Below are positions 2 to 40,625 of a stretch of DNA of 64,000 bases, piece by piece (position 1 is the first letter of the stretch; the number at the start of each line of letters is the position of its first letter). Below the pieces are notes generated by a model. The model had not been told where the DNA came from. It did not search any database and saw nothing but the letters and a program-made list of their open reading frames with translations. The DNA is taken from assembly GCA_001709035.1 (NCBI GenBank), contig LVKA01000011.1:310001-374000 (forward strand), read 5' to 3'. Both the position numbers and the translations under genes were made by a program. Origin of the DNA: Candidatus Thiodiazotropha endoloripes. Its GTDB lineage: Bacteria; Pseudomonadota; Gammaproteobacteria; Chromatiales; Chromatiaceae.

Positions 2-1564
2 AGGCTCCGTCTGCTGCATGGGAAGGCGGAGAGTGAGATACGGGAAGCGTTGAAACCATTCGGTTTTTTTAAGCCCAGCATCATCAGCAAACTGGCGCAG
101 CAGGAACAGAGGTTTCAAGTGACTTATACCGTCGAGTCAGGCCCGGCGGTGAAAATAGACGAGGTTGATTTCCGGGTTTCCGGTGAAGGCAGTAAGGATC
201 CTCGGGTGAGCAAGGTTTTTCCTCTGAAAACCGGCGATGTGCTGGATCAAAGTCTTTATGACAGGGCTAAGCAGTCTTTACTGTCCGATACCATCGAGCA
301 GGGCTATCTGGACGCAAAATATCTGCAACACAGAATTGTGGTGGATACGGCAAGTGATACGGCTAGCATAAATCTACATCTGGATACCGGTATGCGGTTA
401 CGTTTCGGTGAGGTTCGATTCAATCAGGATGTCATGGATGCTGACTTCCTGGGCCGCTATGTGCCTTTCAATACAGGTGACCCGTTCAGTCAGGAGGCGC
501 TGCTCAATCTGCAGGGGCAATTGACCGACAGCGAATATTTCAAACGAGTCGAAGTGATCAGTCGTCGGGATCAGGTGGAGGGGGATCGGGTGCCGGTGGA
601 TATCAATCTCAAGCCCAACAAAAAGAACCGCTACCGGATCGGTCTGGGCTACTCCACTGACACCGGGCCGAGGTTGACCCTGGACTGGAAGAACCGCCGC
701 ATAGGCCGCCGGGGCCACAGAATGCGTACCGAGTTTCAGATATCGGAGCCGATCAGCAGTCTAAGCACTGAGTATGTCATCCCCCTTGAGCGGCCCACCG
801 AAGACTATCTGCGTCTGGGTGCTTCCTATGAGCATTTCAACTCCGACACCAATCAGGGGGACCGGGCGTTAATTAATCTCACCCACTCAGTGAGCCTGGA
901 TCGAGGCTGGCGACGCAGCCTGGGGCTGGAGTATACCCGTGAGGACTTTAAAGTCGGCAATCGGGAGGGTAAATCAAGACTGTTGGTACCGAGTGTGGAT
1001 TGGCTACGCATCAAGAGTGACGGGAAACAGCGGATTAAAAGGGGCAAACGTCTGAATTTTCGTATCGAGGGTGCTTCAGATGCCGTGATGTCGTCTACCA
1101 GCTATTTCCAACTCTATGCCAGTGGCAAGGATATCCGTGCTCTGGGTGATGGGGCGTGGCGCCTGCTGAGTCGGGTGGAGTTGGGGGCAACCTGGGCGCC
1201 AGACTTCTCGGATGAGTTACCACCAAGCAAGCGCTTCTTTGCCGGTGGTGATAACACGGTGCGGGGGTTTGGGTATCAGGATCTGGGGCCTGAAGATAGC
1301 GAAGGCGATGTGATCGGCGGGCGCTATCTTGCTGTGGGCAGTCTTGAGATCGATCGCCACATCAGCGGTAAATGGAGTGGTGCTCTGTTTGTCGATGCGG
1401 GTAACGCCTATGATCAGGATTATGATTCGGAAACGGCTTATGGGGTTGGTTTGGGTGTGCGCTGGCAATCTCCGGTTGGGCCGGTTCGTTTCGATGTTGC
1501 TTCCGGCCGGGTTGAGGACGAGCAGCACTGGCGTCTGCATGTTGTGGTAGGGCCTGAATTGTGA
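2..1564 (+). CDS. tamA: TamA, outer-membrane translocation/assembly barrel (5' partial)
   Basis: TamA is the BamA-superfamily outer-membrane subunit of the translocation and assembly module and works with inner-membrane-anchored TamB. The reading frame is open to the left edge of the window, so the start and signal peptide lie outside; a TTG at 50 is not the true start. The visible 520 residues begin in the POTRA region (RLLHGKAESEIREAL, then two further POTRA-like units up to about residue 210) and continue into a C-terminal beta-barrel. The barrel carries the superfamily hallmark RFFAGGDNTVRGFGYQ near residue 405, whose VRGF tip lies in loop 6. The last four bases GTGA overlap the start of tamB, so the two are translationally coupled. 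Family assignment is strong; only the N-terminus is missing. Confidence 0.93.
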   Translation, partial: RLRLLHGKAESEIREALKPFGFFKPSIISKLAQQEQRFQVTYTVESGPAVKIDEVDFRVSGEGSKDPRVSKVFPLKTGDVLDQSLYDRAKQSLLSDTIEQGYLDAKYLQHRIVVDTASDTASINLHLDTGMRLRFGEVRFNQDVMDADFLGRYVPFNTGDPFSQEALLNLQGQLTDSEYFKRVEVISRRDQVEGDRVPVDINLKPNKKNRYRIGLGYSTDTGPRLTLDWKNRRIGRRGHRMRTEFQISEPISSLSTEYVIPLERPTEDYLRLGASYEHFNSDTNQGDRALINLTHSVSLDRGWRRSLGLEYTREDFKVGNREGKSRLLVPSVDWLRIKSDGKQRIKRGKRLNFRIEGASDAVMSSTSYFQLYASGKDIRALGDGAWRLLSRVELGATWAPDFSDELPPSKRFFAGGDNTVRGFGYQDLGPEDSEGDVIGGRYLAVGSLEIDRHISGKWSGALFVDAGNAYDQDYDSETAYGVGLGVRWQSPVGPVRFDVASGRVEDEQHWRLHVVVGPEL

Positions 1565-4500
1565 CCCTCTTTAGAGCGATTGCCTTGTTGATCGGTGGCC
1601 TGCTGCTGCTCTGCCTGTCACTGATTCTCTACATTGGCATGAGTCAGGATGGCGCCAGGCGCCTGATTGACCAGGCCCAACCCTATCTGCCTGGAAAACT
1701 GAGTGTCGAGTCCATCGAGGGGCGACTCGCCGGACCCTTGTTGATCGAAGGGTTGTGCTATCAGCAGCAGGATGGGCTGAAGTTCTGTAACGAGATTTTC
1801 AAGTTCGATTGGCGCCCATGGTCACTGTTGAAAGGGCGCCTTGAGATCACAGAACTGCTGTTCAGCGATTCGGCCCTCAGCCTTCCTCAAGGTGAATCCT
1901 CTGATCAGGGCAGTACCCCCTATCAGGGTGTGATGCTACCCCTGGAGATCACAATTGAGCGCTTTTCCAGTAGTCGCTTCCAGCTCACAACCAGCTCGGA
2001 TGGTGAGCCCCTGGTAGTTGATCACCTAAAGTTCAGGGCGACTACCGAAGATCAACATCTGTTGATCAGTGATCTTGATTTCAAGGGGTTCTCGGCTGAG
2101 CTGCTGGTTGATGGCCAGGTCGGGCTTGATCGAAGCCTGCCCCTGTCGCTAACGCTGGAGTGGCGCTACAGCCTGCCTGAAGGCGCTGTGATCGCTGGAG
2201 CTGGTGAGATCAATGGCGATGCGGAAAGTCTCCAGCTGCAACAAAAACTGCAACCACCGATTGCCAGTAATCTTCATATCGATCTGCATGATCTGTTCGG
2301 TGACATCAACTGGCAGGCCGTGCTGGCTGTTGATCAGATCGATCTGGCTGAATTCGTTGCCGATTTTCCTGCCACGCTGGGTGGCAGGGTCGATGCTCAG
2401 GGGGATCTGCAACAGCTGTCGCTGAACGGGGATATCCAACTTGATGAACCTGGGCTCGGTAAGCTGTCCAGTGAGCTGTCAGCCAGCTACCAGGGTAACA
2501 GAGTTGAAATAGCCAAACTGAAGCTGACCAATCCCAATGACCTGCAGCTTGATGCCCGGGGCCACTATCGGCTTGACGATGGCGTGCTGGCCGCAAGCCT
2601 ACACTGGCAACAGCTGACCTGGCCACTGACTGGTGAGGCGGTGAGTGTGGCCAGCGAGCAGGGAGAGCTCGAACTCAAAGGCAGCCTCGATCGGTATGTC
2701 TACGAGTTGAATATGGCCTTCGATCTGCCTGATCTACCAGCAGCTGAGATCCATGCGGATGGCCACGGCACTCTGCAAGCCATCACGCTGGCGCAGATGA
2801 GCTTGCGTCAGGAGGATGGCCTGATCAATGGTAAAGGCTCTTTCGACTGGTCAGATGTACTGAATTGGCGGATGGAACTTGTCGCTGAGGATTTCAATCC
2901 GGGCATTTTGCATCCGGCATTTCCGGGGAAGCTGGGCTTTCGCCTGAGTAGTCAGGGCAAGCTGCACAATCAGCAGCCTCAGGGAGTGCTGCAGCTCGAT
3001 GCTCTCAAGGGCCGTTTGCGTGACTACCCGGTGCTGGGTGAAGGGGAGATAACCTTTGCTCAGAAGCAGGCGATCATCAAGGATTTAAATCTGCAGAGTG
3101 GTCCGAATCAGATCACGGCATCCGGTAGTGTCGGTGATCAACTGGGGCTTGACTGGTCGATGGCCGCCCCGGATCTGGGAGGATTCTGGCCAGGTCTTTC
3201 CGGTGAACTGAATGGTCAGGGGAAGTTGCAGGGTACTCTCCAGTCGCCACAAATATCGGCCCAGCTGTCCGGGCAGGACATCGCTTATCAGAGTTATGCC
3301 CTGCAGCGGCTTGCCGGGGAGTTGGTCTTCGGCATGGGGCAATCCCAACCAGTCAAACTTCAGCTTGATACCAGTGGACTTGCTCTGGCTGGCAGAGAGT
3401 GGGATGCCTTGACGGTTGATCTTGACGGCCAGGTTGAGACGCATCAGTTGAAGGTGGCTCTGAGCGGGCAGGAGGCGCCACAGCTGGCACTGATGATCGA
3501 TGCCGGTCTGGATTCTGCAGGACGCTGGAAGGGGCGATTGCAGCAGCTCCGTACGAAGTCAAAGGAGCTTGGCGAATGGCAGCTCGAACAGGCAGCGGAT
3601 TTCCAACTCGGGGAGAGGGAGCAGTATCTGGAACCTTTTTGTCTGGTTGCTGGTGAGAGTCGGCTGTGTGGTGAGTTTGCAAAACACCCGAGTGCGGATT
3701 GGCAATCTCAACTGCAACTTGAAAAATTCAATCTGCAAAGGCTGGAGGCCTGGGCCCCTGGCGGTACGAAACTGAAGGGATTGTTAGGGTTTGAAGCGGA
3801 ACTTAATGCCAACAACGCCGGTGAGATTGAGGGCCGGGTCGATCTGAAACTGGCCCAGGCAGGACTTGGTTTCGATTATCAGGATCAGCTGCACGAGGTC
3901 GATTTCTCCGGCAGTCGTTTAACGGCCAGGCTCGATGCCAAAGGCGGAGCGGCTGAGCTGGAGATGCCTTTAAAGGAGCTTGGCGGAATCAATGGTAAGC
4001 TCAGATTGCCTGGGTTGAAGTTGCCGGAGTTTGATCTGCAGAAGCAGCCCATTTCCGGTCAGTTGAAAGGTGGTATCGAGAATCTGGCCATGGTCTCCAG
4101 CCTGTTGCCACAGCTGCAGAACAGTCGTGGTAACTTTGACATCAATTTCGATATTCAAGGGGTGGTTGCTGAACCCAGACTGCAGGGTGAGGCAAGGCTT
4201 AGCGGTGGGGCTGTGGATGTCGCTGAACTGGGAACTGAGCTGAGGGATCTTGAGCTGCTGATCGAGGCGGTTGAATGGGATCGGCTGAAAGTGACCGGTA
4301 AGGTCAACTCAGGGGATGGACAGCTGGCGATCAATGGCACCACCAGGTTGAGTGTGGCTGATGGCTTCCCCTCCGAATATAAAATAACCGGCAAATCCTG
4401 GCGGGCGGTGGATATCCCGGAAGCCGAAGTGCTGATCTCACCCGAACTACAATTCAAGCATCAGGCCGACGGTACGGAAGTGCGGGGTTTGATCAAGGTG

Positions 4501-5344: not shown

Positions 5345-5511
5345 AATTGCCCCGATCCTGCGCGTTGTAATTTTTTTACACTGCTGCGATATGGCACCCT
5401 GCTGAGTCGCCTCAAAAATTATTCTCCCCATAATTTATTGAACGTTATTTGAATAAATGGCGGTCATTTGACCTGCATCAGTCTTTGCCTATTGTTTTTC
5501 CACGGTATTTT

Positions 5512-5534
5512 TTGTCCAATATTAAGTTGGACAA
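5512..5534. promoter_or_regulatory. Operator-like inverted repeat in front of the MerR/B12 regulator
   Basis: TTGTCCAA, a 7-base spacer, then TTGGACAA form a perfect 8+8 inverted repeat just upstream of the MerR-type regulator start (5554). A related half-site, TTGGGACAA, follows at 5540-5548. The 5' arm TTGTCC is itself close to a -35 hexamer, so a bound dimer or tetramer would block or remodel a promoter there. MerR/CarH-type regulators often bind such repeats in their own promoters; that this is the self-operator is inference. Confidence 0.6.
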
Positions 5535-5553
5535 AGATTTTGGGACAATGGGT

Positions 5554-6462
5554 ATGTCTAAATCAAAAATCTACAGTATCGGACTGATATCGAGCCTGAC
5601 CGGTGTTAAGGAGGCGACTTTGCGCAAATGGGAGAGTCGCTATGGCTATCCTGACCCTGAGCGGTCGAATAGTGGTCGTCGCTACTATTCTCAGCGCCAT
5701 CTAAGCAACCTGATTTCAATTAAAGAGCAGGTGGATACTGGCATTCCGATTCGTAAGGCGATTACCAATCTGAAAAATAACATTCTGCCTGTTCAGCTGT
5801 TAGCTGATGGGAATTTGGCTGGTGTAAAAGCTTATGGAGTCGCCCTGGAAGCGCTTAAGGCCCACGATCTGGAGCTTTGCAAAAGTGAATTGAGAAAATT
5901 GCTCAACAAAGGGGATTTGATCGAATGTGTTGAGCAGGTATTGGCGCCAATGATGGTGGAAGTTGGGGAGCGCTGGTATCGGGGAGAGATCAGTCCCTAT
6001 CAAGAGCATTGTATTTCGAGCCTGCTTGAGTTGGCGCTGATTGAAGCCTCACTGAAAAAGCGGGTGACTCAGAGAGGTAAAAACATCCTCCTTACCACGC
6101 CCTATGGTGAGTTACATACCCTGGGTCTTAGCTTATTGGAGATTGTTCTTGCCTCCATTGGTGGTCGTTGTCTCAACATAGGTGGTGGGTTGTCGTTCCA
6201 GGAGGTTTGTAAAGCCGTCCATGCCTATTCAATAGAGATCGTATGCATCAGTGTCAGTCTCTACTGCAAACCCAGAATCACTCACCAATATTTGACAGAG
6301 CTCAGGGATTCATTGCCAGACCAGGTGGCGCTTTGGGTTGGAGGTCAGGGTATTAATCTGATGAAGACCCTACCGACTGGAGTTCGATACTGCGCAACGG
6401 TTAGTGAAGCAGCAGATCTTTACACATCTCTACCTAATTACTTAAGACCCAGTGACAAGTGA
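5554..6462 (+). CDS. MerR-family regulator with cobalamin-binding domain (CarH/LitR/MlrA-like)
   Basis: A 302-residue regulator. Residues about 4-70 form a MerR winged helix (IGLISSLTGVKEATLRKWES, then RYGYPDPERSNSGRRYY). Residues about 90-175 form a helical B12 cap with W-x9-EH (WYRGEISPYQEH). The C-terminal Rossmann-like cobalamin domain carries the ExHxxG motif (GELHTLG), whose His is the lower axial cobalt ligand in CarH. These are the residues that let CarH/LitR regulators bind adenosylcobalamin and respond to light, so a photoreceptor or B12-sensing role is likely but not proven. The frame extends upstream to a TTG at 5449, but ATG 5554 is preferred: it starts at the MerR domain, has GGGA upstream and lies after the operator-like repeat. 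It heads an operon with the CheB-CheR fusion. Confidence 0.8.
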   Translation: MSKSKIYSIGLISSLTGVKEATLRKWESRYGYPDPERSNSGRRYYSQRHLSNLISIKEQVDTGIPIRKAITNLKNNILPVQLLADGNLAGVKAYGVALEALKAHDLELCKSELRKLLNKGDLIECVEQVLAPMMVEVGERWYRGEISPYQEHCISSLLELALIEASLKKRVTQRGKNILLTTPYGELHTLGLSLLEIVLASIGGRCLNIGGGLSFQEVCKAVHAYSIEIVCISVSLYCKPRITHQYLTELRDSLPDQVALWVGGQGINLMKTLPTGVRYCATVSEAADLYTSLPNYLRPSDK

Positions 6463-6469
6463 AAAACAT

Positions 6470-9376
6470 ATGAATGATATTGACAACAATATAGAGCCTG
6501 CAACGAAAAAGTTTAACGGCTTTGTTGTTGGTATCGGTGCGTCGGCAGGTGGTTTGGAGGCTTTGGAGAGATTCTTTACCCACTGTCCAAGTGATAGCGG
6601 TGCAGCATTTGTAGTTGTACAGCATCTATCTCCAGATCATAAAAGCATGATGATAGATCTGTTGGGCAGATATACATCGATGAAAGTGGTGATGGTAAAG
6701 CATGATATGCAACTTGAGGCAGATAAGGTTTTTCTAATACCGGCAGGAAAATTAATGCGGTTGGAAAAGGACCGATTTAAACTTGAGCCTAAGGCGGCCC
6801 ATGTACTGACATTGCCTATTGATATCTTTTTTACTTCCCTTTCTGAGTCATTCAGTTCACGAGTAATAGGCGTCGTGCTATCCGGTACAGGTTCTGATGG
6901 CTCAAGGGGTGCGATAGCGATTAACGCTTCCGGTGGTTTCTTGATGGCGCAAGAGACGAACAGTGCAAAATTTGATGGTATGCCTGCCAGTATTATCGGT
7001 ACGGGATTGGTGGATGCGATTATGCGTGCCGAGGATCTACCTGAACGTTTGATGTCTCACATCAGAAATATGCCTCCAGGACCATTGTTGTCTGGGCCAG
7101 TAGAGGAGGATGTGTCGATTTCGGATGACGATGCCTATGAAGGCATACTGCAAATTTTGCTGCAGACAGTAGGTATCGACTTCCATGATTATAAAATAGC
7201 GACCATTCTCCGTCGGATAGAGCGTAGAATGCAGGTTAGGCATCTTAGTAAGATCGATCGATATTACAGTTTACTCAAGGAAGAGCGCCAGGAAGTTTTT
7301 ACTTTGAAAAGGGAGCTGTTGATTCCGGTTACAAACTTTTTCAGAGATCCGGAAACATTCAAGGTACTTGAAAGCAGGGTTATAGAAAGAATTGTAGAGA
7401 ATGCTTCTACAGGTTCGAGTATTAGAGTCTGGATATCGGGCGTTTCTACAGGTGAAGAAGCCTATTCAATCGCTATGTTATTTCTGGAGGCGTTTGAAAA
7501 ATTTAGGCGCTGGCCAAACTTAAAGATCTTTGCTACGGATGTGAGTCAGGAAAGCATTGATACTGCTGCTTCAGGTAACTATTCTGAAGCGACCGGAACT
7601 GAAATCACTTCGGAGCGACTTGAAAGGTTTTTTACCCAAACTGGTCACTCTTATAACGTTAAGCCAGAACTTAGACAAACCATAGTATTTGCTAAGCACA
7701 ATCTGTTATCTGATCCGCCGTTTACACAGATGGATTTAGTGACCTGTAGAAATACCTTGATCTATTTTACCCAAGAGGCACAAAACAAAGCACTTCAACG
7801 ATTACAATTTGCGATAAAACCCGAAGGTTACATGTTGCTTGGTTCAAGTGAGTCGGTAGCCAGTGCGGATATTGGTCTGTTGGCAATAGATACAAAACAT
7901 AAGCTTTATCAAAAATCAGCTAATCCTCCTCCTATGCGATTCGATTCTCTAAGCGAACCGTTTAAGCGATATGTTGCAAGGTCTAACAAAAAGGATGCGG
8001 TGAGTTCGTCAAGTGCAATCTCAAATAGCAGTATTATTGATACGGCAGTTAAGGGGTTGGTACGGGAATATGTACCACCCACAATGCTTGTGAATAGTCA
8101 GAATGAAGTTGTACACCTGTTTGGTGATGTAACTCCATTTATGCAGGCCAAGGAGGGTGTTGCAAGCCTTGAATTAAATCGCTTGTTGCCGGAAACCGTA
8201 GTACCGGTAGCATCGGCTTTGATTTTCAAAGCGGCAAAGGAAAAAGAGAAGATCGCATCTGATGCAATACGTGTTTCAACGGGGGAAAAAGAGAAAACGA
8301 TTAGAATTCTGGTCTCTCCGATTGTAAGGGATGGTCTGGAAACGCTGTTGTTGCTCAGTTTTATTGAAAAGCGCGTAGGTGATAGTGAAGTTAAGCCAAA
8401 ATCTATCGATATTGATGCAGAAACTGTTGAAAGAATCGAGGTATTGGAGAGTGAGTTAGCGGCTACTCGTGAAAGTCTGCAGGCGACTATCGAAGAACTT
8501 GAAACATCAAATGAAGAGTTGCAAGCGACAAATGAGGAGTTGATGGCTTCTAATGAGGAGTTACAAAGTTCCAATGAGGAGTTGCAGTCTGTCAACGAAG
8601 AGTTGAATACGGTAAATGCAGAGTATCAGGAAAAAGTCCAGATACTGAACAGGGTAAATGCTGATTTGGACAGTATGACTAAAGCGGTCGGGGTGCCGAC
8701 AGTTTTTGTTGATCAACACTTGAATCTGACAAGGTACAGTCCAGATGCGGTTGGGATCTTTAAGGTCAGGGAGACTGATCTTGGGCGCCCTCTTGACGAA
8801 ATCAACAACATCCTGATTTACAGTGGGCTGATGGAAGACTTTAAAAGGACTATGGCAACAGGCCGTTTGATACAGAAGGAGGTAATGACAAGTAATAAAA
8901 CAACCTATCTGGTTAGATTGTTACCTTATCATATTTCAAACGATGGCCAGGGTGCGGTGGCAACGTTTATCGATGTTACCGCATATCGAGATCGAGAAAG
9001 GTTGCAGGCAATAATCGATGCCCTACCTGAGCATATTGCAGTACTCAGTCATGATGGCACGATTATGTTGGTCAACAAGGCCTGGGTAAGATTTGCTAAA
9101 GCCAATGGTGATACCAATTTGGAAACCACAGGGGTGGGTGTTAACTATCTGGAAACCTGTTATGGGTCAAATGCTCCTGCCGGTAGTGATGCGAGAAAAG
9201 TGTATGGCGGTGTGAAGCAAGTGCTGGAGGGTACAAAAGAAGTATTTAGTTTTGAATATCCTTGTCATTCGCCAAATGAAAAGAGATGGTTCGTGATGAA
9301 TGTTGCGCCTGTTTCTGCAGAAGATTATGGCTGTGTTGTGAGTCATGTCAATATCACCATTTGGTATGAAGAGTAA
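6470..9376 (+). CDS. CheB-CheR fusion with coiled coil and PAS domains
   Basis: About 968 residues. The order is CheB methylesterase (about 10-200; catalytic Ser in GASAGG, His in [10 protein letters not shown], Asp in [10 protein letters not shown]), then CheR methyltransferase (about 225-485; NFFRDPETF and the SAM-binding [16 protein letters not shown]). A long Glu-rich coiled coil follows (about 655-730, repeats of SNEELQ type), then two PAS-like domains at the C-terminus. Such fusions are common in signalling proteins that are not part of a classical chemotaxis array; there is no CheB receiver domain. ATG 6470 was chosen. A GTG at 6452, overlapping the regulator stop, is in frame and possible. 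The gene lies 24 bases before the GGDEF-EAL gene, suggesting co-transcription under the MerR/B12 regulator. Confidence 0.85.
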
Positions 9377-9399
9377 TTCTGCGCAGTTGAATTAAAGCC

Positions 9400-11817
9400 A
9401 TGCAATATAAAAGCCTTTTCGATAATCAACCCGATGCGGCGCTTGTTGTCGATAAATTTAATGTAATCAAGTTGGCCAACAAAAAAGCGTCTGCTCTATT
9501 TGGCTTTAGAAGTCCTGAGATGATGGAGGGTCATTTTTTATTAAGACTTTTTAGTGTAAATGAGACGGTGCGAGTTAAAAAAACACTAGTTGGGCTGAAA
9601 AGAGATGCTCCAGTCTGCGTGGAGGATGTGAGTTATAAAGATGAACTGGGTGTGATGCATCATCTTGATCTCCATTTGACTGCAACTTTTGATACGATTC
9701 TGTCATCAGACCTAGTGCTTGTTACAGTGCAGATACATAAATTTGATATGGAGGATGGTGTCAATAAAAATAGCTTGCTGGCAATTTTGAATAATCTTGA
9801 CGCTTCGGTTGTTACTTACAACAGAGATGGGATTTGTACTTTTGCCAATAATTATTTTTTAAAAGTAAATAATAAACATTACGAAGATGTTGTTGGTAGA
9901 CGCAGAGAGTCCTGGATGCCATATGATATGGCAGTCAAGGAGGAGGCTAAATCAGCCAAAGTTCTGATCTCGGGCTTATCTTCCAGTGATGAGGTGGAGC
10001 TCTCAACAAACAGGGATCATGATTCTCGATATGTCATATCGCGTTTTCCAATTATAGGTAAAAACAGTTCTGTTCCTTCAGGAACTGGTGAGTTGATTGC
10101 GGACGTAACGCGTCAAAGGGTACAGGAGGAGCAGTTGACGTTGGCATTGAATGCCTTTCGTCTGAGTCGAGATGCTATTGTTATGACAAATGATCAGAAT
10201 AAGATCATTTCTGTAAACGATGCCTTTGTACGCATTACCGGATATACAGAGTCAGAGGCTCTGGGTAATGATCCAAGCCTACTTGCTTCGCATCGACACG
10301 ATCATCATTTCTACAAACGAATGTGGGACAGTATTAACCAAAACAACCACTGGGAAGGTGAGATCTGGAATCGTAGGAAATCTGGTGAAATATATCCTGA
10401 GTGGCTCAGTATCAGTAAAATTGTCGATGAAATTAACGATAATATCCACTATATTGCTGTCTTTACCGATATAACACAAAAGAAACAGACAGAAGACGAA
10501 ATAGAGAATCTTGCCTTTTATGATGTGCTGACTGGGCTGGCCAATCGCTATCTACTTGCGGATCGGGTGACTAAGGCCGTCCAAGCCGATATGAGGAGTG
10601 GTGCAACTTCAGCGCTGGTATATTTTGATCTAGACCACTTTAAAAAGGTCAACGACACAATGGGCCACTCTGTTGGTGATAAGTTGCTGCAGGAAGTGGC
10701 TATCCGAATGAAACGCTTGATCAGGGAAAAGGACACATTAAGTCGCTTGGGTGGAGATGAGTTTGTACTGTTCATGCCAGACATTGACCCAAATGATATA
10801 GAAGCAAGATTACATGCTTTGGTTTCACAGTTGAATCAACCGTATAAGATTCTCGACACTGAAGTAACTATCTCTGCTTCGTTCGGCGTTGCCATAAGTC
10901 CAGACGATGGAGGTGCTTATGAAAGCCTTCTGCGGCATGCCGATATGGCAATGTACAAAGCAAAAGAGGATGGAAGGAATTCAGTCTGTTTTTTTAATCG
11001 CAGGTTGGAATTGAAGGCGATTAAAAAAATAAAAATCGATAATGAGCTGAGATATGCCATCGATGCTCAGGAATTAAGTTTGGTTTTTCAGCCACAATTG
11101 ATGCTGAGCAAGGAGAGCGTGGTCGGTTGCGAATGTTTGTTGCGCTGGAAATCCCGCGTATTGGGTGAAGTCAGTCCAGCAGAGTTTATACCGGTAGCAG
11201 AGAAGTCCGGCTTGATCAATAGTATCGGGAAATGGGTTTTGCAGCAGGCCGTTTCAAAAACAAAAGAACTTTTACAGATCAACCCTGAGATTAAGATGGC
11301 GGTCAATATATCTGCTTCTCAATTGCGCTCAAATGATTTTCTCTCTTCACTGCTGGAGATTTGTAATGATTATGAGGTGCCAGCATGCAACATTGAGTTG
11401 GAGGTGACGGAGTCGATGTTAATGGAAAAGGCTGATAGTACAATGAAGCTGTTGAAAAGTTTGGCCAATCACGGGTTTCATATGGCCATAGACGACTTTG
11501 GCACCGGTTACTCTTCATTAGCCTACCTAAACTGGATGCCTGTTTCTGCAATTAAAATCGACCGCGAGTTTGTCCAGGATATCCATCACAATAAGAAGCA
11601 CAGGAAGGTCTGTGTTTCGATAATCAGATTGGCCAGAAGTCTTGATATCAAAACAGTGGCTGAAGGTGTTGAAAGTCACGAACAACTCAAAATATTGCAA
11701 CAGGAGGGGTGCGATATGATTCAGGGTTTCCACTACTCCAAGCCCTTGAGCGGAAGTCAGATGTTGCTATTTTGCAGGGAGTCTGCCGGATTGGAACTAA
11801 AAGAGAGAGGGATGTGA
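9400..11817 (+). CDS. PAS-PAS-PAS-GGDEF-EAL cyclic-di-GMP enzyme
   Basis: An 805-residue cytoplasmic protein with no membrane segment. Three PAS-like domains (about 1-120, 125-235, 245-365) precede a GGDEF domain (about 365-535) with intact RLGGDEF at 449-455. An RxxD inhibitory site (REKD) lies five residues before it. The EAL domain (about 545-795) reads ECL instead of EAL but keeps the metal and catalytic residues: E in ECL, N in VNIS, E in EVTES, DD in IDDFGTG, K in IKID and E in AEGVE. Both synthesis and breakdown of cyclic-di-GMP are therefore possible, with the PAS domains choosing the output. It is the third gene of the MerR/B12-CheBR operon. Confidence 0.87.
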   Translation: MQYKSLFDNQPDAALVVDKFNVIKLANKKASALFGFRSPEMMEGHFLLRLFSVNETVRVKKTLVGLKRDAPVCVEDVSYKDELGVMHHLDLHLTATFDTILSSDLVLVTVQIHKFDMEDGVNKNSLLAILNNLDASVVTYNRDGICTFANNYFLKVNNKHYEDVVGRRRESWMPYDMAVKEEAKSAKVLISGLSSSDEVELSTNRDHDSRYVISRFPIIGKNSSVPSGTGELIADVTRQRVQEEQLTLALNAFRLSRDAIVMTNDQNKIISVNDAFVRITGYTESEALGNDPSLLASHRHDHHFYKRMWDSINQNNHWEGEIWNRRKSGEIYPEWLSISKIVDEINDNIHYIAVFTDITQKKQTEDEIENLAFYDVLTGLANRYLLADRVTKAVQADMRSGATSALVYFDLDHFKKVNDTMGHSVGDKLLQEVAIRMKRLIREKDTLSRLGGDEFVLFMPDIDPNDIEARLHALVSQLNQPYKILDTEVTISASFGVAISPDDGGAYESLLRHADMAMYKAKEDGRNSVCFFNRRLELKAIKKIKIDNELRYAIDAQELSLVFQPQLMLSKESVVGCECLLRWKSRVLGEVSPAEFIPVAEKSGLINSIGKWVLQQAVSKTKELLQINPEIKMAVNISASQLRSNDFLSSLLEICNDYEVPACNIELEVTESMLMEKADSTMKLLKSLANHGFHMAIDDFGTGYSSLAYLNWMPVSAIKIDREFVQDIHHNKKHRKVCVSIIRLARSLDIKTVAEGVESHEQLKILQQEGCDMIQGFHYSKPLSGSQMLLFCRESAGLELKERGM

Positions 11818-18142: not shown

Positions 18143-19117
18143 ATGTCGCCAGCACGTTTCAGATTAGAACTAAAAAATCAGATAACCTTAATTATATTAC
18201 TGTTTTTTCTTCCATTCGGTGCTTTCTCCAGCAGTAAGTGCCTCTATATCTCGTCCTATCATCAGGGTTATGCCTGGTCGGACGGGGTTGAACGTGGGCT
18301 GAGAAAAAGTATTGGGACCCAATGTGAATTGAAGCAGATCGACATGGACACCAAGCGCCATAAGGATGAGGCATACAAGCAGCAGGCTGCCAAGGATGCC
18401 CGGGATCTGATTCTATCCTGGAAGCCCGATGTGGTGATTACCGCCGATGACAATGCGGCGAAATATGTGATTCAGCCCTATTTCAAGGATCATGAGATTC
18501 CGTTTGTGTTTTGCGGTATCAACTGGAATGTGGATGCCTATGGATTCCCTTACAGCAATACCACGGGCATGGTGGAGGTCGCGCCAATCGATGTGCTGTT
18601 CAACAAGGCCAGAAGTATCCGCATCGGTGCGGAACGTGCGGTCTACCTGGGGGCTGATACCCTGACGGAGAAGAAGAATGCGGCGCGCTTCGAAGGCATG
18701 GCCGAGAATATCGGTCTGTTACTGGATCGCCGCCTGGTCTCAACCATGGCCGAGTGGCTGGCCGCGTACGAAGAGGCTCAGGAATACGATTTTGTGATCA
18801 TCGGCAGCAATTCAGGTATCAACGACTGGGATGAGACCGAGGTGGTCGATCGTCTGAAACGCACCACCCACAGTCTGAGCCTGACTACCCATAATTGGAT
18901 GATGCCCTATAGCGTACTTGGTTTTACCAAAATTCCTGAAGAGCATGGGGAGTGGGCAGCTAAGGCGGCACTTGCCATCTTAGACGGTGTCGCGCCAACA
19001 GATATACCGATCGTATCGAACAGAAAGTGGGAGATCTGGGTGAATCACTCGATTCTAATGGTGAGTGGTCTGAAGCTTCCCAATCCATTGGTGAGAAAGG
19101 CCAAGAAAATTCAATAA
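18143..19117 (+). CDS. Periplasmic ABC-type substrate-binding protein
   Basis: A 324-residue exported protein. The hydrophobic N-terminus (about 13-29, ITLIILLFFLPFGAFSS) is a signal peptide. The mature part resembles the ABC_sub_bind family (periplasmic binding fold; WKPDVVITADDNAAKYVIQP, then IPFVFCGINWN). ATG 18143 has a good ribosome-binding site (GAGGGATAGG); an upstream in-frame start at 18107 would bury the signal peptide. Its stop overlaps the start of the CHASE-GGDEF-EAL gene and no permease or ATPase is nearby. It is therefore more likely a sensory binding protein for that enzyme than part of a transporter. Confidence 0.75.
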   Translation: MSPARFRLELKNQITLIILLFFLPFGAFSSSKCLYISSYHQGYAWSDGVERGLRKSIGTQCELKQIDMDTKRHKDEAYKQQAAKDARDLILSWKPDVVITADDNAAKYVIQPYFKDHEIPFVFCGINWNVDAYGFPYSNTTGMVEVAPIDVLFNKARSIRIGAERAVYLGADTLTEKKNAARFEGMAENIGLLLDRRLVSTMAEWLAAYEEAQEYDFVIIGSNSGINDWDETEVVDRLKRTTHSLSLTTHNWMMPYSVLGFTKIPEEHGEWAAKAALAILDGVAPTDIPIVSNRKWEIWVNHSILMVSGLKLPNPLVRKAKKIQ

Positions 19118-21924
19118 TGATGGAATTCACGATCAGGGAAAAAGTATTCATCGGTCAGCGCAGGCTGATCGTGTGGGTATTGGTGGCTGTTTGTTCCCTG
19201 TTGTCGATTACATATTCCGTAACCCAGGAGATTTCTGCCGTTAAACGGGAGTTTGCCAATCAGGCTTGGCAGGTTCAGCGTGCGGTGATCCATCGGGTGG
19301 CCAATCTGGAGACAGTGCTGACGGCCTTGGTCGGTCAGCACCATGCCAGTGATATGCTGAGCAGTGCGGAGCAGACCCTGTTTTCCCAGGAACTGTTGAT
19401 AGCCTATCCGTTCATCCACTCGGTGATGCATGTCGAACGAGTCGCCACTCAGGATGTGGCAGCCTTTGAGCGTCGCATGAAGGTGGAGGGTTTTGTCGGT
19501 TTTAAACTGAAACGGCATGAGCTTTCTCATGAGGGTGACGGCGGTCAGTATCTGGGATTTCATCTGCCGGTCAGTTTTATCGAGCCGATGGAACCAAGAA
19601 CCGCAAGTCTTCTCGGTTATGATCTGGCCAATGAATCCGCTTTTACGACGTTGATAGAAAAGGCGATTCGGGACGGGGATACCATTGCGCTCGAGACACT
19701 GCAGAATCGCTATATCAATAAACCTCTCTACCTGATTCTGAAGCCGGTTTATCTGGGGCGTTACCCACCGGAAGCGGCCAGTGACCGCTGGGAGATGTTG
19801 AGCGGTTTCGCTGTTTTACGAATCGATTTTGAACAGTTCTTCTCAAGTCTGGAGCTGCCTGGTAAGGATTTAAGCTTAAAACTCTTTCGCGGTGCACCAG
19901 CTCTTGATGGTTCCCTGAACAAACTGCTGGCAGAGTTCGGTGCTGAAAATTGGGAACTGGGGCTGAGTCAACATCTGGTCAACTTTACCCAGCCACTGGA
20001 AGTGCACGGTTTGCAGTTCACCCTGTCTGTCAGTCGGGTTATCAGCCTGAATGCGATTCATGGATCGAGAGTATTCATTGAATGGCTGATCACCATGTTG
20101 GTGTTGGGCTTGATCATTGCGGTATATCGCAATCGTCGATATGCCCAACTGCAGGAAGAGGCGGCGGAAGAGGTATTGGCAATCGAGGGCGCCCGATTCA
20201 CCAACGTTATCGATACCGCCTTTGATGCGGTAATCACAGCGGATGGCAGTGGTCGAATCGTCAGTTGGAACCAGCAGGCGAGGGAGGTTTTCGGTTATGA
20301 CGAGCGATTTGTTCTGGGTTTGAGGCTTTTTCAACTCATCCTGCCACCCGAAGCCTTTGTGAAGATTGAGCATGAACTGAAGCCGATTTTTGAGAATCAG
20401 AGCAATCTCCCAAGCCGGCTCAGGCTTGAGACCGTCGGCCAGAGAAAAAATGGTCAGGAGTTTCCTTTGGAACTGGCGATATCCAGCTCTACCGCCGGTA
20501 ATCAGCCGATGCTCAGTATCTTTGCCCGGGACATCACTGAACGCAAACGCTGGGATGAGAAGATACGTTATCTGGCGTATTGTGATTCGCTGACCGATCT
20601 GCCCAACCGACAAGCCTTCAAGGAGCAGGTAAGCAAGGCAATCAATACAGCAAAGCGCCATGGTAGGATTGGGGCGGTGCTCTATCTTGATCTGGATGAG
20701 TTCAAGCGAATCAATGATACTCTCGGTCACGATATCGGCGATATGCTGTTGCAGAATATCACCAAGCGTCTGGTTGAGCAGGTACGGATATCCGATACGA
20801 TCAGTTTCTCCCATACCGGGCAGTTCTCGGGTAAAAATATCGCACGGCTGGGAGGCGATGAGTTTACAGTGCTACTGGATGAGATCGAGGAGCCTGAAGA
20901 CGCCGCCATCGTTGCCAAGCGTGTTCAGAGTGTGATTGCCAGCTCCTACAATCTTAACGGTCATGATGTCTATGTAACCCCGAGTATCGGCATCGCGATC
21001 TTTCCACGGGATGGACATGATGTGGAAGAGCTGCTGAAAAATGCCGATACCGCCATGTATCACGCCAAGGCAGTGGGTAAAAACAACTTTCAGTTTTATA
21101 CCGAACAGATGAATGCACTTGCGGCTACCCGGTTAAAGCTCGAGGGTAAGTTGCGTAAGGCGTTGGTCTCGAAAGAGATGGAGCTCTACTATCAGCCGCA
21201 GATCGATATGCGCACCGGTCAGCTGGTCTCTGCTGAAGCGTTACTGCGCTGGCATCAGCCTGAATTGGGTATGATTCCACCCGATGAGTTCATTCCCATC
21301 GCTGAAGAGACGGGTATGATCATTGAGCTTGGTGAATGGGTTCTGAATGAGGCTTGTCGTCAGAACAAAGCCTGGCAGGATGCAGGACACCAAAACATCA
21401 GAGTGGCGATCAATCTGAGCAGTATGCAGTTCATTCAGCGGGATCTCAGTCATATCGTCGATAATTCTCTGCGCAGCAGCGGTCTGGAACCGAAGTATCT
21501 TGAGTTCGAGATCACGGAAAGTATCCTGATGCGGAATGTGAACGAAACCATCGCCACACTGAACGAGTTCAAGATGATGGGTATCAATATCTCGGTGGAT
21601 GATTTTGGCACCGGCTACTCATCCTTGAGCTACTTGAAACGATTTCCACTCAATTCCCTGAAAATCGATCGTTCATTTATCCGCGATATCCCGGAGAATG
21701 CGGATGATGTGACGATTACCTCTGCGATTATCGCCATGGCGCATCAGCTCAATCTCGGAGTGGTCGCTGAAGGTGTTGAAACACAGAGGCAGCTCGATTT
21801 TCTGCATCAGCAGGGATGTGAAATGGCGCAGGGTTATTTCTTCAGTAAACCACTACCGGCTGGAGAGTTTGAAGCCATGTTGTGTGGTAATGACAACAAG
21901 GTCAGGGTGCTTCAACAGCGCTAA
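19117..21924 (+). CDS. CHASE-PAS-GGDEF-EAL membrane-bound cyclic-di-GMP enzyme
   Basis: About 935 residues. The first membrane helix (about 14-34) is followed by a periplasmic CHASE-like sensor (about 35-325), a second helix (about 326-346), then PAS (about 365-480), GGDEF (about 490-665) and EAL (about 675-925). RLGGDEF is intact near residue 578, but an insertion of about 15 residues precedes it and the RxxD inhibitory site is absent. The EAL domain has EALLRW, VAINLS, EITESIL, VDDFGTG, LKIDRSF and AEGVE, so the phosphodiesterase looks complete. ATG 19117 overlaps the TAA of the binding-protein gene (TAATG), so the two are made together. An upstream in-frame start at 19027 would run through the preceding gene and is less likely. 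Confidence 0.85.
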   Translation: MMEFTIREKVFIGQRRLIVWVLVAVCSLLSITYSVTQEISAVKREFANQAWQVQRAVIHRVANLETVLTALVGQHHASDMLSSAEQTLFSQELLIAYPFIHSVMHVERVATQDVAAFERRMKVEGFVGFKLKRHELSHEGDGGQYLGFHLPVSFIEPMEPRTASLLGYDLANESAFTTLIEKAIRDGDTIALETLQNRYINKPLYLILKPVYLGRYPPEAASDRWEMLSGFAVLRIDFEQFFSSLELPGKDLSLKLFRGAPALDGSLNKLLAEFGAENWELGLSQHLVNFTQPLEVHGLQFTLSVSRVISLNAIHGSRVFIEWLITMLVLGLIIAVYRNRRYAQLQEEAAEEVLAIEGARFTNVIDTAFDAVITADGSGRIVSWNQQAREVFGYDERFVLGLRLFQLILPPEAFVKIEHELKPIFENQSNLPSRLRLETVGQRKNGQEFPLELAISSSTAGNQPMLSIFARDITERKRWDEKIRYLAYCDSLTDLPNRQAFKEQVSKAINTAKRHGRIGAVLYLDLDEFKRINDTLGHDIGDMLLQNITKRLVEQVRISDTISFSHTGQFSGKNIARLGGDEFTVLLDEIEEPEDAAIVAKRVQSVIASSYNLNGHDVYVTPSIGIAIFPRDGHDVEELLKNADTAMYHAKAVGKNNFQFYTEQMNALAATRLKLEGKLRKALVSKEMELYYQPQIDMRTGQLVSAEALLRWHQPELGMIPPDEFIPIAEETGMIIELGEWVLNEACRQNKAWQDAGHQNIRVAINLSSMQFIQRDLSHIVDNSLRSSGLEPKYLEFEITESILMRNVNETIATLNEFKMMGINISVDDFGTGYSSLSYLKRFPLNSLKIDRSFIRDIPENADDVTITSAIIAMAHQLNLGVVAEGVETQRQLDFLHQQGCEMAQGYFFSKPLPAGEFEAMLCGNDNKVRVLQQR

Positions 21925-25377: not shown

Positions 25378-26277
25378 TTACTTGCTTTCCTGGAAGCGGT
25401 AACTGATCAGATGCTTGTTATGCTCGGAAACCGGTTCGCCCAGGCCGATCTTGCCATGCCCGAGCAGGGGGATCGTTTCCCGTCGCAGATAGAGAGATTG
25501 TTGGTTCTGGGTGGTCAGGTAGGTGCCATTGGTGCTGATGTCTTTGAGTACATATTTGCCCCGGTAATACTCCAGAACAGCATGCGACCTGGAGGCGGAG
25601 CTGGCGTTCACCACCAACTCATTCTTTGGGTCCCTGCCTATCCCCACACTCCCCTGGGTGGGTGGCATTTTGTAGGTTTTATTGTTGTACTCGAGAATCA
25701 GCGTCCTGGTTGTCAGGCTCTGAGTGATTGGCGCGGTATGGATGAAAGTGACATCCTCTTTCTGCCATAGCAGGTCATAGATGATCATGCGTTCAACTTT
25801 GCCTTTGACTTTGACCTTGTCGAACTGCCGGGCCATCAGACGCAACTCATCGGGCAGGGCGTCTACAACCTGTTCTGTGGTGATGATCTGTTTGGCCTGG
25901 GCAATGGCGGCCATCCTGGCGGCCACATTGACCGAATCCCCATACATCCGCCCCGCTTCGAAGATGGCCGGCCCATAATGGAGACCGATGCGTGCGGCCA
26001 TCGGCATAGCGGACTGCTCGGCGTAGAGCTCTACCCGTTCATGAATGCGGCAGGCGGCGATAACGGCGCTGCTGGGGTTGTCATATCGACTCATTACCTC
26101 ATCACCGATGATCTCCACCACATGGCCACCGCATTCGGTGACGACCTGAGCAATCGCCTCTTCCAGTTCGGTGATCAGCTTCTTGGCAAGGGTGTCGCCA
26201 AGGCTCTCATACATGCGGGTACTCTCGACAATATCTGCAAATACGATGGCGTATGGTTGGGTATTGCTGGTCGACAT
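25378..26277 (-). CDS. Class III nucleotide cyclase with FHA domain
   Basis: A 299-residue soluble protein. The cyclase domain (about 8-175) has both metal Asp residues (FADIVEST and IIGDEVM) and the Asn/Arg transition-state pair (SVNVAARM), so catalysis is plausible. The nucleotide preference is not clear. A C-terminal FHA domain (about 195-290) has GIGRDPKNELVV, SRSHAVLEY and STNGTYL, the phosphothreonine-binding loops. The family couples cyclic-nucleotide production to Ser/Thr phosphorylation. It lies immediately upstream of mscK. Confidence 0.83.
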   Translation of the reverse strand: MSTSNTQPYAIVFADIVESTRMYESLGDTLAKKLITELEEAIAQVVTECGGHVVEIIGDEVMSRYDNPSSAVIAACRIHERVELYAEQSAMPMAARIGLHYGPAIFEAGRMYGDSVNVAARMAAIAQAKQIITTEQVVDALPDELRLMARQFDKVKVKGKVERMIIYDLLWQKEDVTFIHTAPITQSLTTRTLILEYNNKTYKMPPTQGSVGIGRDPKNELVVNASSASRSHAVLEYYRGKYVLKDISTNGTYLTTQNQQSLYLRRETIPLLGHGKIGLGEPVSEHNKHLISYRFQESK

Positions 26278-39280: not shown

Positions 39281-39484
39281 AGTGTACCTCGTCATAGATT
39301 CTGTACCATTCAGAGCCACCCCAATACGCCAGATCAATGCGTGGCTCCCTACGGGCGAGCCGGCAAGGGGCCATCCGCGTCGTTATGCCTCTTGGAAAGG
39401 GCATGCCATTCCCGGCGAGGCATGCCTTACGGCTAGCCCCTTGCCGACTCGCTGAATGGTACAGAATCTATGACGAGGTACACT
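39281..39484. mobile_element. Family A inverted-repeat element (MITE-like), copy 1
   Basis: The ends are perfect 33-bp inverted repeats (39281-39313 and 39452-39484), beginning AGTGTACCTCGTCATAGATT. The 204-bp element holds an inner arm (GGCAAGGGGC pairing with GCCCCTTGCC) and encodes no protein. It is a shorter version of the copy at 44382-44646. Its right end supplies the last four codons and stop codon of the GGDEF gene on the minus strand (CTSS-TAG). This looks like a non-autonomous element moved by a transposase not present here. Confidence 0.85.
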
Positions 39485-40625
39485 CGGCCCCTTTTTTCTT
39501 ATCCAACGCACCTTTGTCCGAGTGCTTTTCCAATCCCTCCGGGATTTCATGTTCGATCCGGTTTCTGCCATTCGATTTGGCAATGTAGAGGGCCTGGTCG
39601 GCACAGGCCAAAAGGTGGTTGCCCAACTCTTTGTGGTGGCTCTTTCCCAGCATTGGCAGAGTTTCACTGACTCCGATGGAGACACTCAACTGCAGGTTCA
39701 CCCCCTGGTCCAGATAGACCGGATGTGAATTGACCTCAAGGCGAATCCGCTCGGCCAGCAGCAGTGCCTCCGACAGGTTGGTCTGAGGTAGCAGGATGGC
39801 GAACTCCTCACCACCGTAACGGGTGGCCACATCACTGGCGCGTAACTGGGAGCGGATACGTTTTGCCAACTCTCTCAACACCTGGTCCCCGGCCGGGTGA
39901 CCATAGTTGTCATTGATCCGTTTGAAATGGTCGGCATCGATAAACAGACAGCTCAGCGGCTGGCGATAACGGCTGGCCCGGGAGAGCTCCTCTTCCAGAC
40001 GGCGGTCCAGATAGCGGCGGTTGTGCAGTTCAGTGAGTGGGTCGGTAAGGCCGCTGATCAGAAGTCGTTCCCGGTTGGTGACGTTTTCCAGGCAGACACC
40101 ACAGATGGTAGCCAGGCGGGCGAGAAAGTCTGTCGCATGTTGTCGGGTAAACCGGTTCGCGTCCTGGCTGCCCAGATTGATGCTGCCCACCAGATGATTG
40201 CTGCAGATCAGAGGCAGGATAGCGATACTTTTAAGATTCCTCGGCTGATCGAACAGGTTGTTGTATTCCGGAGTGAGAAAGGGACCCAGCCAAGGGCTCT
40301 TCAGTCGAAGAAAGCGCTGATTGATAACTCCCAGGTCATCCACGAAGCGGACGTAGGGGAATGCATCGACGGGAATGCCGTTGTTACTCAGTAGGTGTCG
40401 AATCTCATGGTCAGGATCCAGCATCAGTAATTGAATATCGTCGACCTCAAACGAGGCGAGCAAGCCTTCGCTCATACCGCTCAATAGTTCGCCCAGGGAT
40501 TCGGCACTTAGCAGCTCAAGCTCCCGGGCATAGAAGCGCCCCAGGGTCTCCTGGTTCTCTACAGCCTTACGGGTCAGTTCTTTCAAACGTAGACGTAGGA
40601 TTCGGTTTTCTTCTTTCAGATCCAT
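39468..40625 (-). CDS. GAF-like/GGDEF diguanylate cyclase
   Basis: A 385-residue soluble protein. An N-terminal coil and a DUF484/GAF-like sensor (about 35-190; LKSIAILPLICSNHLVGSIN) are followed by a GGDEF domain (about 200-365) with RYGGEEF. An RxxD product-inhibition site (RASD) lies five residues before it. It has FIDADHFKRINDNYGH, so cyclic-di-GMP synthesis is expected. The C-terminal residues after about 381 come from a family A element, so the original C-terminus was probably different by a few residues. It lies convergent with the CDGSH gene. Confidence 0.85.
   Translation of the reverse strand: MDLKEENRILRLRLKELTRKAVENQETLGRFYARELELLSAESLGELLSGMSEGLLASFEVDDIQLLMLDPDHEIRHLLSNNGIPVDAFPYVRFVDDLGVINQRFLRLKSPWLGPFLTPEYNNLFDQPRNLKSIAILPLICSNHLVGSINLGSQDANRFTRQHATDFLARLATICGVCLENVTNRERLLISGLTDPLTELHNRRYLDRRLEEELSRASRYRQPLSCLFIDADHFKRINDNYGHPAGDQVLRELAKRIRSQLRASDVATRYGGEEFAILLPQTNLSEALLLAERIRLEVNSHPVYLDQGVNLQLSVSIGVSETLPMLGKSHHKELGNHLLACADQALYIAKSNGRNRIEHEIPEGLEKHSDKGALDKKKGAECTSS

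Follow-up and report, generated by a model that had tools for sequence, protein, structure and literature searches.

The window analyzed here is a stretch of 64,000 nucleotides from the genome of Candidatus Thiodiazotropha endoloripes (GenBank assembly GCA_001709035.1, contig LVKA01000011.1, positions 310,001 to 374,000 of the forward strand), and all positions given for it count from its first letter. On its + strand it encodes, in this order, a CarH-like MerR regulator with B12-binding domains (5554 to 6462), a fusion of CheB, CheR, and PAS domains (6470 to 9376, ATG start), and a PAS-GGDEF-EAL enzyme (9400 to 11817, ATG start). This arrangement is referred to as the trio, its regulator as MerR-B12, and CheB-CheR fusions as CheBR. 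The open reading frames (ORFs) are separated by 7 and 23 nucleotides, as stated in an original prediction made from the letters of this DNA, and a candidate operator precedes the first of them. Taken together, these features may constitute a self-regulated signaling operon that links a B12-type repressor to cyclic di-GMP (c-di-GMP). Genome-wide statements on this bacterium rest on searches of its 4.87-Mb genome.

The regulator and its candidate operator

The regulator is a protein of 302 amino acids in which a MerR helix-turn-helix domain (MerR_1, PF13411) and a four-helix B12-binding domain (B12-binding_2, PF02607) are both recognized by Pfam above cut-off. PF02310 was not matched at E 0.001, and a Rossmann B12-binding domain is present in the AlphaFold2 (AF2) model (mean predicted local distance difference test score, pLDDT, 84.4; predicted template modeling score, pTM, 0.66). 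The ATG at 5554 is favored over that at 5548 as the start codon by conservation across species, the ortholog at locus L033 having TTG at the first ATG. By sequence as well as by predicted fold, the nearest solved relative is TtCarH from Thermus, whose full-length structure is the top Foldseek match of the model (E 3e-18), with a TM-score of about 0.5 over the whole chain and TMt values of up to 0.83 for the B12 domain alone. With the class I CarH/LitR regulators exemplified by TtCarH (PDB 5C8D/E/F), the protein shares the MerR head, the four-helix and predicted Rossmann B12 domains, the Wx9EH motif, and the axial histidine. The cobalamin-type residues that had been noted in it are indeed there, Wx9EH as GERWYRGEISPYQEH and ExHxxG as GELHTLG. 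W141, E151, H152, and the axial H188 are kept in all five orthologs, and all four in 37 of 44 aligned homologs (44 of the 45 listed references, the truncated L013 being left out and the window protein standing in for L004). The genome encodes an adenosyltransferase of the BtuR type (E 1e-65), and the search of it gave no match for one of the PduO type.

Despite this relatedness, several differences exist between the regulator and the class I proteins, and the following three count against the operon model proposed below, those in GxxxP and His132 concerning light features of CarH. According to passages of PMC11796333, the light signature consists of GxxW, EH, GxxH, and GxxxP; three of these four elements are found, GxxxP being replaced by GxxxS in all five orthologs. 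The score against the NCBIfam CarH model (NF052513) is 104.9 bits, compared to a cut-off of 400 bits. The position of TtCarH His132, a residue of the bis-His light state, is occupied by Tyr142, so that the regulator has no equivalent of it. In addition, identity to regulators found outside the genus does not exceed 36%, the best match being 36% among 195 genomes of the order and 33% among 369 of the class. Unlike class I regulators, it precedes signaling genes, and neither a photolyase nor a CMAS gene was found among the 22 window proteins scanned. The closest relative outside the genus among the sampled genomes of the order (36%; L090, 466-2727) has a lone receiver-domain gene on one side and a gene for a periplasmic binding protein on the other.

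Upstream of the regulator, at 5511 to 5535, lies the candidate operator TTTGTCCAA-N7-TTGGACAAA, proposed from the repeat and its conservation and assigned to neither strand. The repeat had been described as perfect with arms of eight; it is perfect, and its arms comprise nine nucleotides each. Its chance expectation in the window is 0.01, even when up to three mismatches are allowed. The 8+8 core, TTGTCCAA-N7-TTGGACAA, is unchanged in all five orthologs while much of the flank has diverged, and the ninth base pair is kept in the window and in L033. Since no second copy with fewer than three mismatches was found in the genome, the repeat points to an autoregulator of one operon. A wide regulon controlled through this palindrome was considered and rejected, as the match counts equal those of the reversed-pattern control (3 and 3 per strand). 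Among 257 loci, the pattern TTGTCYAN(8-10)TRGACAA occurs in 19, all of which are either trio loci of Candidatus Thiodiazotropha that overlap one another or locus L104 from an uncultured proteobacterium. A second pattern derived from the window, GTCCAN9TGGAC, is found in 25 of them: loci of the genus, L119 from Giesbergeria anulus, where it lies upstream of the regulator, and six others (L075, L116, L118, L162, L207, and L235) that look like chance matches. The expectation for the kindred palindrome before the regulator of L119 is 0.02. In L104, where a kindred palindrome likewise precedes the regulator, the arms stand one base further apart, and the palindrome was matched by none of 200 shuffles, an optimistic figure because the pattern was read off L104 itself; no such palindrome is visible in L103, from a Geobacter metagenome-assembled genome (MAG).

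A promoter-like stretch, TTGACC-16-TATTGT, precedes the operator on the + strand (5468 to 5495) and is conserved by eye in the five orthologous upstream regions; a scan for promoter consensus matches yielded 15, compared to 13.7 expected by chance. Positions 5468 to 5481 (TTGACCTGCATCAG; TTGATCTGCATCAG in an ortholog) also bear a likeness to an FNR-type box, for which the consensus is TTGAT-N4-ATCAA. This likeness is conserved upstream of the operon, and control of the operon by oxygen through such a box is possible.

The CheB-CheR-PAS protein, its coil, and the third gene product

The second gene encodes 968 amino acids in the order CheB, CheR, PAS-like fold, coil, PAS, and PAS, as judged from Pfam matches and an AF2 model with a mean pLDDT of 78.0. 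The CheB methylesterase domain spans residues 20-194 (6527 to 7051; PF01339, E 6e-52) and the CheR methyltransferase domains residues 222-466 (7133 to 7867; PF03705 and PF01739); they are followed by the coil (residues 655-739; 8432 to 8686), a PAS_10 domain (733-837; 8666 to 8980; PF13596), and a C-terminal PAS_4 domain (850-952; 9017 to 9325; PF08448), all on the + strand. Pfam at E 0.001 detects no receiver domain and there is no che gene among the 22 other window proteins scanned, both in agreement with the original prediction. S25, H52, and D143 as well as R292, E330, D357, and N428, which we take to be the CheB and CheR active-site residues, are invariant in 50 of 50 aligned CheBR fusions.

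In the AF2 model, residues 655-739 form a long single helix between the PAS-like fold and PAS_10. From residue 675 onward, this helix carries a tandem heptad array of the form NEEL(Q)(S/A/T)(S/T), with Asn at position a, a Glu pair at b and c, Leu at d, and small residues at f and g, resembling a chemoreceptor methylation site in its heptad register and making the helix a candidate methyl-accepting coil. When a site is defined as the heptad [EQ][EQ]xx[AST][AST]x, tandem runs of at least two are present in 87 of 92 unique CheBR fusions (two partial matches not counted), runs of at least three in 65, and runs of at least four in 54; the longest run is 0 in 2 fusions, 1 in 3, 2 in 22, 3 in 11, 4 in 38, 5 in 14, 6 in 1, and 7 in 1. 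The subset collected with a coil-free query behaves likewise, 64 of its 69 fusions having runs of at least two (longest run 0 in 2, 1 in 3, 2 in 21, 3 in 11, 4 in 21, 5 in 10, and 7 in 1). Grouping at 60% identity leaves 37 clusters, and the longest member has a run of at least two in 36 of them. The other non-redundant segments, 9010 in number with 1.99 million residues, include only 2 with a run of two—a PAS_10-bearing C-terminal piece beside another CheBR (L216) and a chemoreceptor (L110; MCP-signal, 186 bits). A PAS-only query on plasmids gave 205 records, of which 60 were listed and 12 loci, chosen by the authors, were opened; an EE coil precedes the PAS domain in all 12, including two from Bacteroidota and one from Deinococcus. 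CheR, recognized by Pfam or by its motif, resides in the same gene in 11, although L274 has only part of it, and one gene earlier in L275. There (1311-4277), a CheB-CheR protein of 611 amino acids, similar to the coil-less L190 and L195 described below, is followed by a separate gene with an EE coil in frame, PAS_10, and an HWE histidine kinase, which implies that the coil can be split off from CheB-CheR.

The conservation of the array was assessed in an alignment of 50 fusions (49 of the 60 listed references plus the window protein). Mean entropy is lowest at c (0.09 bits), followed by b (0.42), a (0.59), d (0.99), f (1.08), e (1.30), and g (1.53); the 27 rows below 60% identity gave 0.09 for c, 0.16 for b, 0.36 for a, 0.87 for d, 0.87 for f, 1.35 for e, and 1.63 for g. 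E696, E697, E703, E704, E710, and E711 are each present in 50 of 50 sequences, so that the central glutamate pairs match the active-site residues in invariance. E675, E676, and E682 are slightly variable, the main exchange at E676 being that between Glu and Gln (46 E, 3 Q). In a plain coil, the exposed positions b and c should vary more than the core; the opposite is seen here, which speaks against a plain coil. Chemoreceptor methylation typically occurs on the second residue of an EE or EQ pair, at heptad position c, within [ASTG]2-x2-[EQ]2-x2-[ASTG]2, as stated in excerpts of PMC6829392 and PMC6391922. A shorter consensus, EExxA[ST], is given in a portion of PMC1079850, and two sites of this form, with the second Glu at c, are found in the window coil; 62 of the 92 fusions have at least one [EQ]ExxA[ST] site, in the b/c register, position a being Asn and position d Leu. 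In comparison with methyl-accepting chemotaxis proteins (MCPs), the heptad register, the Glu pair at b and c, and the small residues at f and g are thus the same. In contrast, the window CheBR lacks an MCP-signal domain, has Gln at e, and carries the modification enzymes in cis.

Several observations are at odds with the coil as a methylation substrate. The strict 10-residue consensus is absent from the window coil and is found in 5 of 92 fusions, mostly failing through Gln instead of a small residue at e. Two tandem sites were seen in none of the 14 readable chemoreceptors of the genome (15 in total), which had been intended as a positive control. Three fusions have one site only, L210 being cut inside the coil by the end of its locus and L200 and L203 being uncut. 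Finally, L190 and L195 comprise whole CheB and CheR domains with neither site nor coil and end about 110 residues after CheR, lacking the PAS domains as well.

The third gene product has 805 amino acids. Its GGDEF domain spans residues 372-527 (10513 to 10980; PF00990) and its EAL domain residues 548-782 (11041 to 11745; PF00563), both on the + strand. GGDEF, I-site RxxD, and EAL motifs are recognizable in it as REKDTLSRLGGDEF, ECLLRW, DDFG, and AEGVE, and by its intact GGDEF and EAL motifs the protein qualifies as a putative bifunctional GGDEF-EAL enzyme. Its proposed role as the output of the system is supported by the lack of an output domain in CheBR, as judged by Pfam, and by a second locus of the genome in which a CheBR relative is fused to GGDEF-EAL.

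Recurrence of the trio and related loci

Conserved linkage of the three genes, whose absence the original prediction had listed among the findings that would refute it, was found, albeit rarely: orthologous trios are present in 5 of 22 genomes of the genus, this one included, and a few cases lie outside it. In these five, the regulator is at least 84% and CheBR at least 92% identical; an AAA-type ATPase gene with a peptidoglycan-binding domain and a T2SSB gene follow the trio in all five, as in the window, and tamB precedes it in four, the exception being G011 (L032). In the window, the genes upstream are of the tamA and tamB types (Omp85/POTRA and TamB). An Rfam scan of the window at gathering scores gave no match. 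Elsewhere in it are a CHASE-PAS-GGDEF-EAL protein (19027-21921), a DUF484-GGDEF protein (39471-40625), and, as a further nucleotide-signaling gene, the catalytic domain of an adenylate/guanylate cyclase joined to an FHA domain (25381-26277, - strand).

An alignment scan of named genome contigs with the regulator confirmed at least 565 loci, and the 80 nearest were kept. Among the matches listed, the best named one is L102, from Candidatus Thiodiazotropha sp. 'RUGA'. The DNA fetched around the 80 regulators contains an FAD-oxidoreductase gene in 61 cases, CMAS in 59, DUF1365 in 58, and BLUF in 1; a cluster of the former three is of the light-inducible type, in part as described in passages of PMC9758184. 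The MerR link of CheBR is rare, which counts against the operon model: CheBR is found at 4 of the 80 loci (L102, L103, L104, and L119). The genus and phylum searches supplied 88 CheBR loci, and a MerR-B12 gene lies in the fetched flank of 7, all of this genus; six of these are trio loci, L034 and L188 representing a single place, and the seventh is the second locus of the present genome. In L119 the trio recurs, its mechanically called ORFs being 16 and 12 nucleotides apart and its CheBR being 55% identical to that of the window over 964 amino acids and its GGDEF-EAL protein 36%. L104 has the trio order and is cut by the contig end, and L103 combines MerR with CheBR, histidine kinases flanking the latter on both sides. 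None of the four signature elements is missing from the regulators of L103, L104, and L119. On a tree, the CheBR-linked regulators require 4 label changes compared to a shuffled mean of 8.8, a difference to which near-copies contribute, and they may form a single clade, which the approximately unbiased test does not reject (p-AU 0.643), with long branches.

When 249 genomes sampled from the phylum were searched with a CheBR query, 58 had a match. The class search returned CheBR at 47-51% identity in 3 of 369 genomes other than the present one, with an adjoining PAS-GGDEF-EAL gene in 2 of the 3 and no MerR-B12 gene in the fetched stretch of any. A GGDEF-EAL match flanks 17 of 18 CheBR loci of the genus and 7 of 70 from the phylum search; the two sets are unlike, as the first 30 phylum flanks mostly stop within the gene and several of those 7 matches lie in the same protein. 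The recurrence of CheBR with GGDEF-EAL in places where MerR is missing makes this pair look like an older core to which MerR-B12 was added as a controller.

In the second locus (L059; contig 19 of the genome, 288000-307000; 7905-16883), the genes for MerR-B12 and BLUF diverge from each other, and after them come a gene for a CheB-CheR-PAS-GGDEF-EAL fusion of 1413 amino acids and a PAS-GGDEF-EAL gene; a phage-type integrase adjoins. Its fusion is the only frame above 1,400 amino acids among the 18 CheBR places of the genus, and the locus may therefore have been acquired. The regulator keeps the Trp, EH, the axial His, and GxxxP, with Asp in place of the Gly before the axial His, and the fusion has an intact GGDEF and a degenerate EAL (DNFT, AKCVE). 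The PAS_4 domain of the window CheBR is 38% identical over 117 amino acids to a PAS of the GGDEF-EAL protein encoded here. No perfect inverted repeat of at least 7 nucleotides with a gap of up to 21 was found between BLUF and MerR. By its gene content, this locus supports a link of the trio with light and c-di-GMP. BLUF divergent from a MerR-B12 gene with the whole light signature recurs in a gammaproteobacterial MAG (L114, 6978-8607), another instance in which BLUF neighbors a CarH-like gene. In six genomes of the genus, the present one included (L052-L054, L056-L058; e.g., L082: 150-3516), a MerR-B12 homolog stands beside a photolyase gene and a DUF1722/2-thiouracil desulfurase gene, neighbors recognized by Pfam in L082 and by similarity in the other loci; this homolog has lost the Trp, EH, and the axial His and is therefore unlikely to bind B12 in the manner of CarH.

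Class II LitR, in which one of the two B12 domains is missing according to excerpts of PMC9758184, is paired in PmlR2/PmSB-LOV with a short LOV protein. The likeness is confined to the second locus, where a LitR-type regulator likewise lies beside a flavin blue-light sensor; there, however, the sensor is BLUF and the B12-pocket residues are present, and the trio has no flavin sensor named by Pfam. B12 photochemistry is tied to c-di-GMP within one protein in the photocobilin-diguanylate cyclase AbDPcob, as far as passages of PMC10979010 describe it, whereas in the trio a B12-type repressor would exert its effect through expression. Other CheB-CheR-PAS fusions, annotated as CheR family methyltransferase or chemotaxis protein CheB, share the domain order, active-site residues, EE coil, and PAS_10; the window protein differs in that its gene is linked to those of a MerR-B12 regulator and of a separate GGDEF-EAL protein. 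Among the matches listed from open-licence literature, none states a substrate for CheB-CheR fusions, treats a coil as their substrate, or deals with MerR-B12 together with CheBR and GGDEF-EAL.

A possible self-regulated signaling operon

The explanation that we consider best overall, with a probability of roughly 0.47, is that of a self-regulated signaling operon. The regulator would bind adenosylcobalamin and, as an oligomer, the palindrome at 5511 to 5535, thereby repressing its own three-gene operon in the dark, and light, or the loss of adenosylcobalamin, would release it. In the second gene product, a PAS sensor, the fused CheR and CheB would methylate and demethylate its own coil or the coil of the dimer partner, and coil methylation would set the gain of the PAS signal, or its memory, with no chemoreceptor array involved. 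The tuned signal would then pass to the third protein and set its c-di-GMP output. Gene order, its recurrence, operator conservation, folds, motifs, and the coil array follow from the sequences; of the functional parts, autorepression by the regulator is likely, control of the operon by B12 or light is somewhat less certain yet still probable, and passage of the signal from the second to the third gene product seems about as probable as the latter. That CheBR methylates its own coil is put forward more tentatively, at somewhat below even odds, and slightly more so the extension to the whole CheB-CheR-PAS family as self-contained adaptation devices, in which CheR would methylate and CheB demethylate or deamidate the glutamate pairs of a coil on the same polypeptide or within the dimer, here under a B12-type light switch. 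Because L190 and L195 keep whole CheB and CheR without a coil, the odds of methylation in cis were lowered slightly, as were those of the overall explanation (from 0.48).

The coil could instead be a rigid dimeric signaling helix, its glutamates serving helix packing or partner binding, with CheB and CheR acting in trans on chemoreceptors. The genome has 15 MCP-signal matches on which they might act, an interdomain helix fits the signaling-helix theme outlined in parts of PMC1592074, and the missed strict consensus with its Gln at e, the lack of tandem arrays in the readable chemoreceptors, and the coil-less L190 and L195 all agree with it. What such a helix would not predict is that the b/c glutamates exceed the core leucines at d in conservation, that E676 exchanges mainly with Gln, that CheR accompanies the coil in the same or the preceding gene in all 12 plasmid loci, and that che neighbors are missing from the scanned window proteins; even so, its chances come close to even. 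A further suggestion, made in the original prediction, is that CheBR modifies the third protein. The two genes adjoin, as CheBR and PAS-GGDEF-EAL genes do elsewhere, and a CheBR relative is fused to GGDEF-EAL in the second locus, so that this could happen; it is improbable, since the third protein, one of the 9010 other segments, lacks a run of two tandem EE heptads while the coil of CheBR has four, making the latter the better candidate substrate.

As regards the input, the regulator may sense cobalamin status, or another corrinoid or redox state, rather than light, in which case the operon would couple B12 supply to c-di-GMP. Lucinid clam symbionts live mostly in the dark, which tells against a light switch, and GxxxS in place of GxxxP, Tyr in place of His132, and the presence of BtuR point in the same direction. 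Retention of W141, E151/H152, and H188, the full signature of the regulators at L103, L104, and L119, and the BLUF gene of the second locus leave this alternative possible at well below even odds. The light or B12 control and c-di-GMP coupling originally proposed are partly supported: they gain from the second locus, with its BLUF, MerR-B12, and CheBR-GGDEF-EAL genes, from the conserved linkage and operator, and from the predicted CarH fold with its B12 residues, and GxxxP and the His132 equivalent are missing. It could also be that the three genes are accidental neighbors with separate promoters and functions; promoter-like matches in the region are about as frequent as expected by chance and speak neither for nor against internal promoters. 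The recurrence of the gene order in unrelated genomes and the conserved operator render this very unlikely.

Should the self-regulated operon exist as proposed, it would link sensing of B12 or light with c-di-GMP at the level of expression in a genus of marine symbionts. If true, an own-coil substrate would extend methylation-based adaptation, so far tied to chemoreceptors, to c-di-GMP and kinase signaling, and through the family a chemoreceptor-like memory would become available outside chemotaxis arrays, to PAS sensors, histidine kinases, and c-di-GMP enzymes.

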